From: Natrialba chahannaoensis JCM 10990
GTDB lineage: Archaea; Halobacteriota; Halobacteria; Halobacteriales; Natrialbaceae
Length of the DNA: 54,838 nucleotides
NCBI RefSeq assembly: GCF_000337135.1
Contig: NZ_AOIN01000014.1
Location: forward strand, 10,567 to 65,404
Reading direction: 5' to 3'
In this document: positions 7,963 through 45,836 of the stretch, piece after piece
Layout: the number at the start of each line of letters is the position of its first letter
How positions within the stretch are numbered: position 1 is the stretch's first letter
Made by a program: the position numbers and the translations under genes
The notes under the pieces: model-generated
The model's input: the letters and a program-made list of their open reading frames with translations, nothing else
Databases searched by the model: none
What the model was told of the DNA's origin: nothing

Positions 7963-8661
7963 TCAGTGCCTGTCCGATTCTGCGATTTCGCGAATCCGAT
8001 CCGCTCCTGCTGGGACGTAGCCGCCATGATAGCAGAGCGTGTGCGTGACATCGAGGTCGGCGAGCGTCGCAACGGACTCGAGTGCCCGCTCCATCTTGGG
8101 TGTGAACTCCGGTTTCGGACCAGCGAGTCGGTCGGCACCGTCACCCGGACCGTCCGCAACCAGCGCGTCACCGGCAACCAGCAACTCGCCGTCAGGGAAG
8201 TGAATCGAGATGTGGCCCGTGGAATGACCTGGCGTCTCGACAACCTCGAACGGGCCCGCGAGCGTCGGGACGCAAACGCCACCGACGAGTTCGATATCCA
8301 CCGACACCGGCGGATACCTGTCGTCGCCACTGCCCTTGATCGGGTCACGCTCGCCCGTCACGTACGGCGTTTCCTCACGGTGGGCCGCGACCATCGCGTC
8401 GGTGCGATCAAGCAACGTCTCGAGCGCGCCCGCGTGGTCACCGTCGTGGTGCGTGAGGATGACCAGCCAGATGTCTGTGAGTTCGTACTCGAGTGCGCGC
8501 AGGTGCGTCTCGATGGCGTCGACCGCACCGGACTCGGCGGGGCCGACATCGAACAGTACGAGGCCGCGTTCGGTTTCGACGACTGCGGGCGTGATCGCGA
8601 GATCCTGCCCGCCGTAGTCGACCGTGATCGGCAGTGCGTGTACGACAGCATCAGCGTCCAT
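7963..8661 (-). CDS. metallo-beta-lactamase-fold hydrolase
   Basis: 232-residue MBL-fold protein. The metal-binding motif reads ILTHHDGDHAGA with His71, Asp73, Asp75 and His76, a common variant of HxHxDH. Further metal ligands are likely His in ETPGHSTGH and His in TLCYHGGY near the C-terminus, while GDALVADGPG supplies the bridging Asp. It belongs to the glyoxalase-II-like part of the superfamily, but the substrate is unknown. It converges with the RNA ligase gene across only 12 bases and is divergent from the first terpene-synthase-like gene, with a 97-base promoter region between. Confidence 0.85.
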   Translation of the reverse strand: MDADAVVHALPITVDYGGQDLAITPAVVETERGLVLFDVGPAESGAVDAIETHLRALEYELTDIWLVILTHHDGDHAGALETLLDRTDAMVAAHREETPYVTGERDPIKGSGDDRYPPVSVDIELVGGVCVPTLAGPFEVVETPGHSTGHISIHFPDGELLVAGDALVADGPGDGADRLAGPKPEFTPKMERALESVATLADLDVTHTLCYHGGYVPAGADRIREIAESDRH

Positions 8662-8758: not shown

Positions 8759-9823
8759 ATGGAGAACGAGCCCACCATCGGGCACCAATCCCCGCTCGTC
8801 CCACCAACTCCCGCGCTTGACAGTGAGACGGATCCGATTACGGACCGAGAACAGGACCCGCTTCCCGAATCTGTGACAGATCTCCTCGCGCGCTACGAGG
8901 ATATCATTGGGGATCGAGGGGACTCACTCTGGCGCTGGCTCTACGGCGCGTTCCCCGAATTTCGACTCTCGTGTGTCGCCGACAAGTATGGCTCGCGAGT
9001 TCGGACGGCAAAACTTCTCTCGTCGCTGTTCATTACGATCGCAGACGATGTTGCGGAGCTGCATGGCGACCGGGAAACGTTCGCACAGCTAGCGAACGTC
9101 CCGTTCGACAGCCAGTGTGCCGATCCCAATTGTGCGGGCGTCGACAGCCCCGTAGTCGACCTCGCGATCGACGTCTGGAGCCGCTTTCGGGAGCTGTACG
9201 ACGCGGGCCCCCGTGCAACCGAGTTCGGCGATCTCCTCGCGTTCGACCTGCGGCAGGTGCTCGACGCCATCGAGTACTCGCTGCTCGCGAATCGCGACCC
9301 CAATCTCGTCTCGGAGCAGGAGCTGTGGACCTACGACTCTGCCAACATGATGGTGTTCGTCCACGCCCTCACCGATCTGGCGAACGCACCAACGTTCGAC
9401 CGAGCAGAACTCGCTTCGCTCCGACAGGTGCTCGACAGAACTCAGCGTATGGCCCGGATCGGCAACTGGCTCGCGACTTGGCAGCGCGAACTCGCCGAGG
9501 GCGACTACAGTTCAGGCGTGGTCGTCCGCGCGATTGAAACGGGCGTGATCGATCCCACAGAGTTGCAGCACCTGCGCTCGGCTGCAAGGTTAGAATCAAT
9601 GGCGGACTCGGAATCAGTAACAACAACGGAACGGTTCGACACGCTCGTTCGAGCCGTCAAACGCTCGTCCGTCGAAGCCTACTTCCTCGATCGCTGGCGT
9701 ATCGAATGTGCCGACGCGGCGCGGTTCGACAACGCGCTCGCAAGCATCGACCTCGGAGCGTACCTCGGCGGGTTCGAGACGATTCTGTGCTCACACGTTG
9801 CGAAACGGAATATGACGCGCTAA
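8759..9823 (+). CDS. class I terpene-synthase-like protein (paralogue 1)
   Basis: A 354-residue alpha-helical protein with both metal-binding motifs of class I terpene synthases. The Asp-rich motif is ITIADDVAE (Asp96, Asp97, Glu100). The NSE triad is Asn236-x3-Thr240-x3-Glu244 in NWLATWQRE, followed by GDYSSGVVVRAIETG, which resembles the conserved stretch after NSE in bacterial cyclases. The 140-residue spacing between motifs is also typical. The Arg pyrophosphate sensor usually found about 46 residues before NSE is not obvious; that place holds ELWTYDSANMM. No C-terminal RY pair is seen. It may ionise a prenyl diphosphate, or be a diverged relative. About 70 percent similar to the next gene. 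Confidence 0.65.
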   Translation: MENEPTIGHQSPLVPPTPALDSETDPITDREQDPLPESVTDLLARYEDIIGDRGDSLWRWLYGAFPEFRLSCVADKYGSRVRTAKLLSSLFITIADDVAELHGDRETFAQLANVPFDSQCADPNCAGVDSPVVDLAIDVWSRFRELYDAGPRATEFGDLLAFDLRQVLDAIEYSLLANRDPNLVSEQELWTYDSANMMVFVHALTDLANAPTFDRAELASLRQVLDRTQRMARIGNWLATWQRELAEGDYSSGVVVRAIETGVIDPTELQHLRSAARLESMADSESVTTTERFDTLVRAVKRSSVEAYFLDRWRIECADAARFDNALASIDLGAYLGGFETILCSHVAKRNMTR

Positions 9824-10084
9824 GGATGTCGGTTACCGCTATCAACGAGGCGGACACGAGCCTACGGACAGTCGTCTGCAACTCTGACGAGGAGAATCAC
9901 GGGAGTGGCGTGTTGCATCAGGTTCGGTGTCTCATCTGATGGGACATGACCACCATAGCAATGCGTTCTAGCTACCGTAATCGATCGTACCGGAAGTGCG
10001 ATAAGCTGGCGTCAGAGTCCACGTGTGGCGACTATGGGTGGTCATCCCGATAATTCTCGGAACCGTTGTATCAACAACTCAATG

Positions 10085-10095
10085 ATACAACTAAT
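10085..10095 (+). promoter_or_regulatory. promoter element of terpene-synthase-like paralogue 2
   Basis: ATACAACTAAT is identical to the element before paralogue 1 and lies 34 bases before the chosen ATG at 10119. Upstream, GGCGACTATGGGTGGTCATC at about 10027-10046 echoes the paralogue 1 block. Between 9824 and 10020 I see no gene or recognisable site. Confidence 0.5.
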
Positions 10096-10118
10096 GGATT
10101 GTAATGTCTATTGGTAAT

Positions 10119-11144
10119 ATGGTGCATAAACAGTCCGACGAAAATCAGCCCTCGATCGTCCCCTCCATCACCGATATCGACAGCGAATCAGATCCTATTT
10201 TGGACCGTGAACAGGACCCTTTCCCCAAACCGGTTGCTGACTACATTGCACGGTACGACAAGGTCATCGGCGACAGGCCACACTCGACGTGGCGCTGGGG
10301 CTACAACGGGACTCCTGAGGTTCGACTCTCGTGTGTTGACGATGAATTGGAAAACCGCGTCCGAACGGCAAAGTTACTCGCAACGATGTACATCACAATT
10401 GCGGACGATATTGCAGAGCGTCATAACGATCAGGCGACGCTCGCGGAGTTGATACCCATCCCATTCGACAATCAGTCCACCGATCCCGAGAAAGACAGTG
10501 TTGACAGTGAGATAATTGACCTCAGTACCGATATCTGGAACCAATTCCGGGAACGATACGATGCGAGCCCGCGGGCGGCCGAGTTCGTCGACCTTTTCGA
10601 GTTCGATCTGCGACAGGTTCTCGATGCGGTCGAATACTCACTGCTCACCAATCGTTCCCCCGATCTCGTCTCGGAGCAGGAGCTGTGGACTTACGACTCC
10701 TACAACATGATGGTGTACGTCTACGCCGTCATTGACCTGGCGAACGCACCGGAATTTGACCGAGCAGACCTTTCCACGCTTCGGCAGGTAACTCACAGAA
10801 CCCAGCGCATGGCCCGGATCGGCAACTGGCTCGCGACCTGGCAGCGGGAACTCGCCGAAGGTGATTTCAGTTCGGGAGTGGTCATCCGCGCGGTCGAAAC
10901 GGACGTAATCAACCGCGAAGACTTGCACACACTGCGCGCTACTGCGGAGCACGGGCAGGCGTCAGAAACAGTGGACGAGATCGTTCGGAGTATCGAGCGC
11001 TCGTCTATCGAAGATGACTTCCTCGACCGCTGGCGCGTCGAGTATGCCGAGGCGGCGCGCTTCAACGATGCACTCGAGAGCGTCGACCTTGAGGAATATC
11101 TTGAGGGGTTTGAGACGATCCTGGACTCGTACGTTGCGTGGTGA
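10119..11144 (+). CDS. class I terpene-synthase-like protein (paralogue 2)
   Basis: 341-residue tandem paralogue of the preceding gene. With the ATG at 10119, rather than 10104, its motifs fall on exactly the same residue numbers as in paralogue 1: ITIADDIAE at Asp96-Asp97-Glu100 and NWLATWQRE at Asn236-Thr240-Glu244, followed by GDFSSGVVIRAVETD. This ungapped match supports the start. The region around LVSEQELWTYDSYNMM is nearly identical between the two and may mark the family's own active-site surface. Divergence is moderate and spread out, so this is an old duplication with both copies kept intact. Product and substrate are unknown. Confidence 0.65.
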   Translation: MVHKQSDENQPSIVPSITDIDSESDPILDREQDPFPKPVADYIARYDKVIGDRPHSTWRWGYNGTPEVRLSCVDDELENRVRTAKLLATMYITIADDIAERHNDQATLAELIPIPFDNQSTDPEKDSVDSEIIDLSTDIWNQFRERYDASPRAAEFVDLFEFDLRQVLDAVEYSLLTNRSPDLVSEQELWTYDSYNMMVYVYAVIDLANAPEFDRADLSTLRQVTHRTQRMARIGNWLATWQRELAEGDFSSGVVIRAVETDVINREDLHTLRATAEHGQASETVDEIVRSIERSSIEDDFLDRWRVEYAEAARFNDALESVDLEEYLEGFETILDSYVAW

Positions 11145-42497: not shown

Positions 42498-43844
42498 CTA
42501 CCGCTCGTGGACGGTCATCGGCACCTCGTGCTTCGGTCGGGAAGTGATCGTCGCCCGCAGATCAAGTTCGGTCCCTGGAACGAGCTCGAGGTGATAGTTC
42601 TGGTAGATGGTCGCGAGGGTAAGCCGCGCCTCGAGCATCGCAAAGCGGTCGCCGATGCATCGTCGCGGCCCTGCGGCGAACGGGAAGTACGCTAGTCTTG
42701 GGAGGTCGTTCTCTAGGTCGTCGGTCCAGCGCTCGGGCCGAAAGGAGAGCGGGTCGTCGTACCACCGCGGATCGCGGTGGACGACCCACTGGTGCATCCA
42801 GACCGTCGCACCAGGTTGAATCTCGTAGCCGCCGATGATGTCTGGCTTGACTGGTTCGCGGACGATGCCCGGCACCGGCGGGTACAGCCGCATCGATTCT
42901 TTGACCACCTGCTCGGTGTACGTGAGGTCGTCGAGATCTGCTATCGTCGGCGTCTCGCCACCGAGCACGTCGTCAAGTTCCTCGACTAGCGCCCGCTCGA
43001 CGGCTGGGTTCGTCGAGAGAAGGTACGCCGCAAACGTCAGCGCGAGCGCCGTCGTCTCGTGGCCCGCGAACAGCAGCGTCACGACCTCGTCTCGGATTTG
43101 CTCATCTGAGAGCGTATTCCCCTCCTCGTCGGTCACCTCGAGTAGCTTCGAAATGACGTCCTGATCAGTTGGGTTCGCCCGCCGCTCCTCGATCAGTTGA
43201 TAGACGAGAGAGTCAAGCGACTCCCGGGCCCACTGAATTCGGCGTCGCGAGGGCGTAGGAATCTGCTGTGGAAGCACGAGGTGCGAGAGGGTTTCAGTTG
43301 CCAACATGAACTCGTCGAACGCCGCACCGACGGTGTCGACGGAGTCGTCGATGTCGACGCCAAAGAGTGCACGGGCGACGATTTTCAGCGTCACCTCCAT
43401 CATATCTTCGTGGATCAGCCGCGTCTGTCCGTCCGCCCACGTCTCGAGTAGGTCTTCGGTGAAGCCAATCATCATCGGCGCGTGCCCCTCGATGCGGTTG
43501 GAACTGAACGCGGGCTGGATGAGGTGGCGGTTGCGCCGCCAGACCGCGCCTTCGCTGTTCAGGATGCCGTTCCCCATCACTGGTCCCAGCATAGTCTGGA
43601 AGTGATCGCCTTTGATGTAGTGCTGGTTGTTCTGGACGAGAACCTGCTCGATGTACTCCGGGTGGTTGAGCTGGTAGACCGGGCCGGTCGGCTCCTCCCA
43701 GTACGCGATATCTCCGTACTCGCGGGCCGTCCGTGTCATGAACGCGTACGGCTCACGAAGAAGCGCAAGCTGGTTCCCGACAAGCGGTAGCCCATCCGGG
43801 CCGGACGGTTTCTCGTCGGTCACTGGTGGTGTGTCGCTGCTCAT
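42498..43844 (-). CDS. cytochrome P450
   Basis: 448-residue soluble P450 monooxygenase. The oxygen-binding I-helix motif is LLFAGHETTALAL, the K-helix ExxR is in VVKESMRLYPPVPG and the haem loop is FPFAAGPRRCIGDRFAM with the thiolate Cys396. A PERF-like FRPERW precedes it. A TATA-like CTTAAAC at about 43902-43908 places the transcript start near 43878, so the ATG at 43844 is preferred to that at 43898. No ferredoxin or reductase gene is adjacent. The substrate is unknown; fatty acids or isoprenoids are possible. Confidence 0.94.
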   Translation of the reverse strand: MSSDTPPVTDEKPSGPDGLPLVGNQLALLREPYAFMTRTAREYGDIAYWEEPTGPVYQLNHPEYIEQVLVQNNQHYIKGDHFQTMLGPVMGNGILNSEGAVWRRNRHLIQPAFSSNRIEGHAPMMIGFTEDLLETWADGQTRLIHEDMMEVTLKIVARALFGVDIDDSVDTVGAAFDEFMLATETLSHLVLPQQIPTPSRRRIQWARESLDSLVYQLIEERRANPTDQDVISKLLEVTDEEGNTLSDEQIRDEVVTLLFAGHETTALALTFAAYLLSTNPAVERALVEELDDVLGGETPTIADLDDLTYTEQVVKESMRLYPPVPGIVREPVKPDIIGGYEIQPGATVWMHQWVVHRDPRWYDDPLSFRPERWTDDLENDLPRLAYFPFAAGPRRCIGDRFAMLEARLTLATIYQNYHLELVPGTELDLRATITSRPKHEVPMTVHER

Positions 43845-44148
43845 CCGTGTGGTGACCGACGTGGCCGACACGCTCCGTCTGACCCCGTGCATCCCCATGG
43901 TGTTTAAGTCAGGACAGATACAGTAACAACTGAAACTGGTTGGGCACCGATTGCACTGTCCGCGATTCTCGTTCGCCCGTCCGCACCGAACCGCGCTGTC
44001 TTCGTGCGGTCGGGTACGCACTGACTGTTAGTTGCCCTTATAACACTCGACAGTTCGACGATCCGTTCAAGCGGACGCGAGCGGTCAGCGAATTGCAGCG
44101 CACAACGAAGCCCAACCAGTTTTTGCCACCGATCGATTGTGGTCTGGT
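43845..44148. other. divergent promoter region between the P450 and sirtuin genes
   Basis: Holds the P450 promoter near 43900 and a TATA-like GTTTTTGCC at about 44120-44128, roughly 28 bases before the sirtuin ATG. A further TATA-like CCCTTATAAC at about 44034 has no gene at proper distance. No gene is supported in between. Confidence 0.45.
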
Positions 44149-45017: not shown

Positions 45018-45725
45018 TCAGGCGTCGTTGGCCGCCTCGACCGTCTCACGAACCGCGTCGACGCTCTCGTCGTGTGCGAGGTCGCCGACGACGATCACGT
45101 CGGCGTACTGGGCCATCGAGTACGCCGAATCGTAGTCGTGGATGCCACCGCCGTAGAACAGCGTCGCGTCATCGACTGCACCGCTTGCAGCGTCGACGAT
45201 GCCCTCGTCGCCGAGCATACCTGAGTACTCGACGTAGACGATTTCCTGGCCGAACATTCGCTCTGCAATCTCAGCATAGGCCGCCACGTCGTCGGCGTCC
45301 AAATCGCAATCAGCCTCGGTGTAGGTCGCCACGTCGGCGTCAGGGTTCATCACGATGTAGGCCTCCGTCGCGGTTCGGTCCCAGTCCAGGCCGTTGTCGA
45401 TTCGGACCCACTCCTTGTGCGCGCCAGTGATCCAGAACGGCGAGCCAGCGTTGAAGACGGTCGGGATAAGGTAGCCCTCCAGTGCCCGGTTGTCGATGAC
45501 GACATCGGGGCTCGATGGTTCCTGGTAAAGCGGCACGTCGTGTTCGGCACAGGCCTCCACGACGGCTTCCATGTTCTCCTCGGTGATCCCCATCGTGCCG
45601 CCGACTTCGATTGCGTCGGTGCCCGTGGCACAGAGATCACCGTAGGTGATCCCGTCAGGTAACTCCTTGTCAGGGTCTATCTTGAGAATATGGTCCCACT
45701 CCTCCCAGGGCGTCTCGGTAGTCAT
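45018..45725 (-). CDS. geranylgeranylglyceryl phosphate synthase
   Basis: 235-residue TIM-barrel prenyltransferase that attaches geranylgeranyl diphosphate to sn-glycerol-1-phosphate, the first committed step of archaeal ether-lipid synthesis. Characteristic segments are [45 protein letters not shown] and [10 protein letters not shown], of which the last two form the phosphate-binding loops. The ATG at 45725 fits the fold start. It is convergent with the sirtuin gene across 47 bases. Confidence 0.94.
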
Positions 45726-45836
45726 ACCGCCTCGTTTCCCGAGGGGTGAGAAAAACGCTACGAAACGAACCATCTCTGATAGCATCACCAGTACCGATTT
45801 GCAGCGCTTCGTGGCTGCCAGCCGCCACTCGTGCCC

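Follow-up and report, generated by a model that had tools for sequence, protein, structure and literature searches.

Two tandem genes, A and B, in the window (the whole analysed stretch of 54,838 nucleotides from Natrialba chahannaoensis) probably encode divergent class I terpene synthases, as judged from their sequence motifs and a structural model. Terpene synthases are the makers of scent- and pigment-type molecules. The family to which A and B belong appears to work like a class I terpene synthase without being an ordinary member of this class, and most likely it consists of divergent, regulated enzymes of this kind. The window features considered below are the following:

7963..8661, minus strand: divergent neighbour, metallo-beta-lactamase-fold hydrolase (PF00753), adjoining the family gene in most Natrialbaceae loci
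8759..9823, plus strand: gene A, terpene-synthase-like protein of 354 aa (ORF; PF19086 match; isoprenoid-synthase fold matches of the AF2 model)
9044..9058, plus strand: DDVAE (DDxxE) metal motif of A, residues 96-100
9320..9352, plus strand: ELWTYDSANMM segment of A, residues 188-198 (AF2 secondary structure; hhalign)
9464..9490, plus strand: N-WLA-T-WQR-E (NSE-type triad) of A, residues 236-244
10008..10103, plus strand: upstream region of B, a diverged copy of the upstream region of A (alignment of both)
10104..11144, plus strand: gene B, tandem paralogue of 346 aa (ORF; alternative start Met6 at 10119)
10404..10418, plus strand: DDIAE metal motif of B, residues 101-105 (sequence)
10680..10712, plus strand: ELWTYDSYNMM segment of B, residues 193-203 (sequence)
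10824..10850, plus strand: N-WLA-T-WQR-E triad of B, residues 241-249 (sequence)

The gene pair and its metal-binding motifs

Both ORFs lie where the initial annotation had placed them, and in each protein the DDxxE and N-x3-T-x3-E motifs are spaced by 140 residues. The positions that it gave for the motifs of both proteins (96-100 and 236-244) are right for A; in B, counted from the ATG at 10104, they are five higher (101-105 and 241-249), unless translation starts at Met6. In A, the triad N236-WLA-T240-WQR-E244 is followed by GDYSSGVVVRAIET.

The two proteins are 61% identical over 347 residues in a pairwise alignment, and the closest relatives of the pair are found in Natrialba. Single-copy orthologues from this genus share 78-79% identity with A, and in the tree B is sister to the group of A and three Natrialba orthologues, on a longer branch. 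The dN/dS values for the pair and the Natrialba orthologues (0.2-0.27) indicate purifying selection on the pair. When aligned, the upstream regions of A and B have in common GTGGCG.CTATGGGT.G.C.TCCCGATA and ATACAACTAAT, and the upstream region of B contains a relic of the divergent metallo-beta-lactamase-fold gene, derived from its 5' end. Since the latter is a copy of the A upstream region that includes this trace of the hydrolase gene start, the duplication carried the promoter. We suppose that B arose as a tandem duplicate of A with its own promoter copy.

A loose motif pair, defined as DDxx[DE] plus [ND]xxx[ST]xxxE at a distance of 120-165 residues, occurs in 1.4% of the 561 other called proteins and in 1.5% of shuffles of A, and against this background its presence in one protein is weak evidence. 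When the trailing GD is added, the combination occurs in none of these 561 proteins and in none of 20,000 shuffles of A. The decisive point for the reality of the motifs is their conservation across homologues. In the alignment of 92 haloarchaeal homologues, N236, T/S240, E244 and D97 are each retained in all 92 sequences and D96 in 91; the aspartate-rich motif reads DD..E in 83 of them, DD..D in eight and ND..D in one. The triad N/(T,S)/E is also found in the Methanosarcina branch. Eleven residues are invariant in the 92-sequence alignment (R53, W60, D97, D206, R222, R233, N236, W237, W241, E244 and D249), with two invariant tryptophans flanking the triad.

Fold, profile matches and the absent arginine sensor

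The profile search and the structure prediction that the initial annotation had called for both point to the class I terpene synthases. Gene product A matches PF19086 (Terpene_syn_C_2) with 24.6 bits, above the cut-off of 23.7, and B with 20.2 bits, just under it. Searched individually, 56 of the 92 members match this family (E <= 1e-3), and no other credible family was recovered. The NCBIfam search gave no match, and neither the protein nor the family profile, when searched against PDB sequences, returned an isoprenoid synthase.

The initial annotation had made its reading depend on an all-alpha isoprenoid synthase fold, and this is the fold predicted. The AF2 model of A is all-alpha (pLDDT 93.1, pTM 0.90), and its best 50 PDB matches in Foldseek are all isoprenoid-synthase folds (probability 1.00, but with E only about 5e-4 and TM about 0.5), led by the geosmin synthase N-domain and by aristolochene and T-muurolol synthases, with VenA, prenyl synthases and the N-prenyltransferase DabA also among them. 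For a Methanosarcinaceae relative (pLDDT 91.6), the best 50 PDB matches are class I terpene synthases only, with TM values of 0.64-0.68 to hydropyrene synthase and 0.69 to BjKS.

That human FPPS and GGPPS are matched by the fold of the window protein would agree with a trans-prenyl diphosphate synthase, which lengthens a prenyl diphosphate with IPP; such enzymes (PF00348) have the same all-alpha superfamily fold. However, their second DDxxD is replaced in the new family by N-x3-T-x3-E, none of the 92 members matches PF00348 in Pfam, and the hhalign comparison with prenyl synthases fails (31 columns, E 0.48). Moreover, the genome already has three PF00348 genes, as well as three genes of the squalene/phytoene synthase family PF00494, which likewise matches none of the 92 members. 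Membership in the prenyl-diphosphate synthases was rejected on the Pfam and hhalign results, and we consider such an activity extremely improbable. Thus, of the “terpene cyclases or prenyl-diphosphate enzymes” first proposed, the profiles support the terpene synthase part and speak against the prenyl-diphosphate synthase part.

With the bacterial and fungal class I synthases (PF19086; hydropyrene, T-muurolol, geosmin N-domain, aristolochene and pentalenene synthases) the new family has in common the all-alpha fold, DDxx(E/D), the NSE-type triad, the motif spacing of about 140 residues, a basic residue before the triad Glu, and an acidic residue and S/N-x-V(V) after the triad. It differs from them in lacking the conserved Arg sensor, in a C-terminus that stops before RY, in an invariant Trp instead of Asp next to the triad Asn (N+1), and in the extra invariant residues R53, W60, D206, R222, R233, W237 and W241; identity to the solved structures is about 15%.

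The canonical haloarchaeal synthases are proteins of about 480 aa that carry an N-terminal extension and are encoded beside a polyprenyl synthetase at the following loci:

L077:4752-7135 (G381:C4): canonical synthase beside polyprenyl synthetase
L148:6705-12407 (G227): canonical synthase beside polyprenyl synthetase
L147:1959-4068 (G279): canonical synthase beside polyprenyl synthetase

In one genome, the canonical synthase and polyprenyl synthetase form a divergent double pair. These enzymes belong to the same Pfam family as the new one (PF19086 with 136-174 bits), match solved synthases with E down to 1e-66, and keep the sensor Arg and R(Y/F). For the new family, by contrast, no PDB sequence was matched. 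The hhalign comparison aligns the new family with them over 214 columns with both metal motifs in register, at E 0.013 and a low probability of 3.4%.

The initial annotation had described in both proteins a common ELWTYDS(A/Y)NMM segment in place of the Arg sensor and the absence of the RY pair, and all three points are borne out. The segment is found in both proteins; in A, it lies at a predicted helix break (186-197 / 199-208), the site of the Arg sensor in canonical enzymes. The pyrophosphate sensor Arg is expected about 46 residues before the triad, and that of the canonical haloarchaeal synthases aligns in hhalign with W190 of A, a column occupied by W in 29, R in 17, E in 12 and other residues in the rest of the 92 homologues. 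Y192 and N196 are conserved near this unconserved column, at the helix break. At the family level, RY is indeed absent, since the C-termini fall 1-2 residues short of the canonical RY position in the hhalign alignment; an R-F at 322-323 (A numbering) is present in A and B and is unconserved in the family. The RY pair is also absent from some accepted terpene synthases. Of six attributes of class I terpene synthases, the family thus shows four (fold, DDxx(D/E), triad and profile), and the absence of the other two, the Arg sensor and RY, sets it apart from ordinary members.

Substitutes for the missing Arg sensor and RY pair may be sought among other conserved residues. All 92 haloarchaeal sequences have R222 and R233, which are not invariant in Methanosarcina. 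R233 is located on the metal-binding helix face, a single turn ahead of N236, at a position that is hydrophobic in the canonical haloarchaeal synthases. Perhaps, this residue could bind an acidic acceptor, and, together with the presence of DabA among the Foldseek matches, this would be in line with a prenyltransferase of terpene synthase fold that ionises a prenyl diphosphate and, instead of cyclising the cation, hands it over to an acceptor, which for DabA is glutamate. Nevertheless, DabA-type enzymes share the overall fold class with only a weak fold match (TM 0.35), no acceptor-binding domain was seen, and R233 is lost in the Methanosarcina branch, whose model matches terpene synthases only. 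Such a prenyl transfer seems to us rather unlikely.

If the family acts as class I terpene synthases, D96/D97 and N236/T240/E244 would bind three Mg2+ ions, and the enzyme would grip a prenyl diphosphate (FPP or GGPP, for which synthase families are present in the genome) by its diphosphate group, ionise it and release a terpene hydrocarbon or alcohol. More tentatively, the roles of the Arg sensor and RY might be taken by K85, R222, R233 and R243 together with Y192/N196 at the helix break.

Distribution of the family and its possible significance

A whole-genome search with B detected homologues in 120 of 392 sampled haloarchaeal genomes (about 30%) and in 44 of 95 genera. Only four of these 392 genomes yielded a canonical terpene synthase, and the new family is therefore some thirty times as frequent. 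With the family profile, members were also detected in Methanosarcinaceae and in further families of the phylum. Within the genome contigs, a single-protein scan with B gave no match, and an alignment-based scan found 114 relatives. Methanohalobium is among the hosts named for them, as are the haloarchaeal genera Natrialba, Natrinema, Natronorubrum, Haloarcula, Halorubrum, Halorussus, Haladaptatus and Haloferax. One relative (L210) comes from a contig assigned to a Lysobacteraceae bacterium MAG; this contig may be archaeal DNA that was binned wrongly.

The suggestion of an under-described archaeal branch has held up: the family genes are labelled “hypothetical protein” in the annotated records inspected, and no paper on the family was found among the openly licensed literature. 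The initial annotation was silent on the spread beyond haloarchaea and on the regulators and tailoring genes described below.

Archaea are built on isoprenoid lipids, and to our knowledge few archaeal terpenoid products are known beyond carotenoids. According to a 2023 survey, no archaeal gene cluster besides those for halocin and bacterioruberin has been confidently tied to a secondary metabolite (PMC10105419). One can suggest, as a possibility that we hold more doubtful than probable, that the family represents an undescribed archaeal terpenoid pathway, that is, a distinct Halobacteriota clade of terpene synthases that has neither Arg sensor nor RY pair, is controlled through PAS/GAF sensors or HTH regulators encoded alongside and makes a regulated terpenoid (a signal, a volatile, or a membrane or pigment molecule). 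If active, the family would offer a ready route to archaeal terpenoids and a test of the dispensability of the Arg sensor and RY pair, and the adjacent regulators may show when the product is made.

Gene neighbourhoods

Among the 58 loci outside the conserved Natrialbaceae locus, sensor or regulator genes make up 27.6% of the immediately adjacent genes versus 1.8-3.8% at gene ranks 2 to 6, and they adjoin the family gene in 32 loci from 21 genera. They encode Bat-type GAF/HTH_10 regulators, PAS histidine kinases and FilR1-type HTH proteins. In most of the Methanosarcina-type loci considered (L137-L142 and L145), the family gene is preceded on the same strand by a gene as long as that of a two-PAS histidine kinase, and this identity was confirmed in both loci scanned (L137 and L141). 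Downstream of the family gene, the g154 loci (L138 and L139) have a 371-aa gene, which in L139 encodes a metallo-beta-lactamase-fold protein.

That PAS/GAF sensors and HTH regulators so often adjoin the family gene, like the absence of the Arg sensor and RY pair, could be reconciled with a catalytically inactive terpene-synthase relative that serves as a ligand-binding or regulatory protein. We find this highly unlikely: all the metal-binding residues persist in nearly every member, contrary to what one would expect of a dead enzyme, and other members are located in biosynthetic clusters. For active terpene synthases, the same neighbours suggest that the gene is a regulated accessory trait: many lineages have it next to a sensor kinase or transcription regulator of its own, and some have it within a multi-gene cluster of terpenoid type.

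One such cluster occurs in Natrinema ejinorense (L057, with flanks L130 and L131; G258:C1:534000-574000), where the family gene is accompanied by genes for UbiA, two P450s, two flavin monooxygenases, a SnoaL-like cyclase, an O-methyltransferase and an aminotransferase, a putative meroterpenoid-like pathway. The meroterpenoid-like combination of UbiA, SnoaL and methyltransferase would also suit prenyl transfer to an acceptor. P450 or flavin monooxygenase neighbours are present in several further genera. In total, a P450 gene is located near the family gene in six loci from five genera versus roughly one expected (our own estimate from the genome-wide P450 frequency); this enrichment is modest against the background and suggestive only. 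In Halobacteriales archaeon YIM A00010, a canonical terpene synthase and a polyprenyl synthetase are encoded at a distance of about 0.8 kb from a family member.

In most Natrialbaceae loci (clades g1, g2, g11, g13, g18 and g25), as in the window, the family gene occupies a conserved housekeeping neighbourhood with the divergent metallo-beta-lactamase-fold gene alongside. The window neighbours include genes of RNA ligase, its PIN-domain partner, a cystathionine gamma-synthase-type protein, Rpb4, DUF655 and the KsgA family. A biosynthetic cluster at the window locus was rejected, the neighbours being housekeeping genes only, with no tailoring genes, and the search for a phage origin gave no phage match. 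Elsewhere in the window, at 42498-44021 and 45018-45788 on the minus strand, a cytochrome P450 gene and a PcrB/GGGP-synthase-family gene are separated by about 1 kb and lie roughly 31-34 kb away from the pair, with no sign of linkage to it. Across Natrialbaceae, the metallo-beta-lactamase-fold hydrolase gene stays divergent to the family gene, even in locus L039 with its otherwise different flanking genes.
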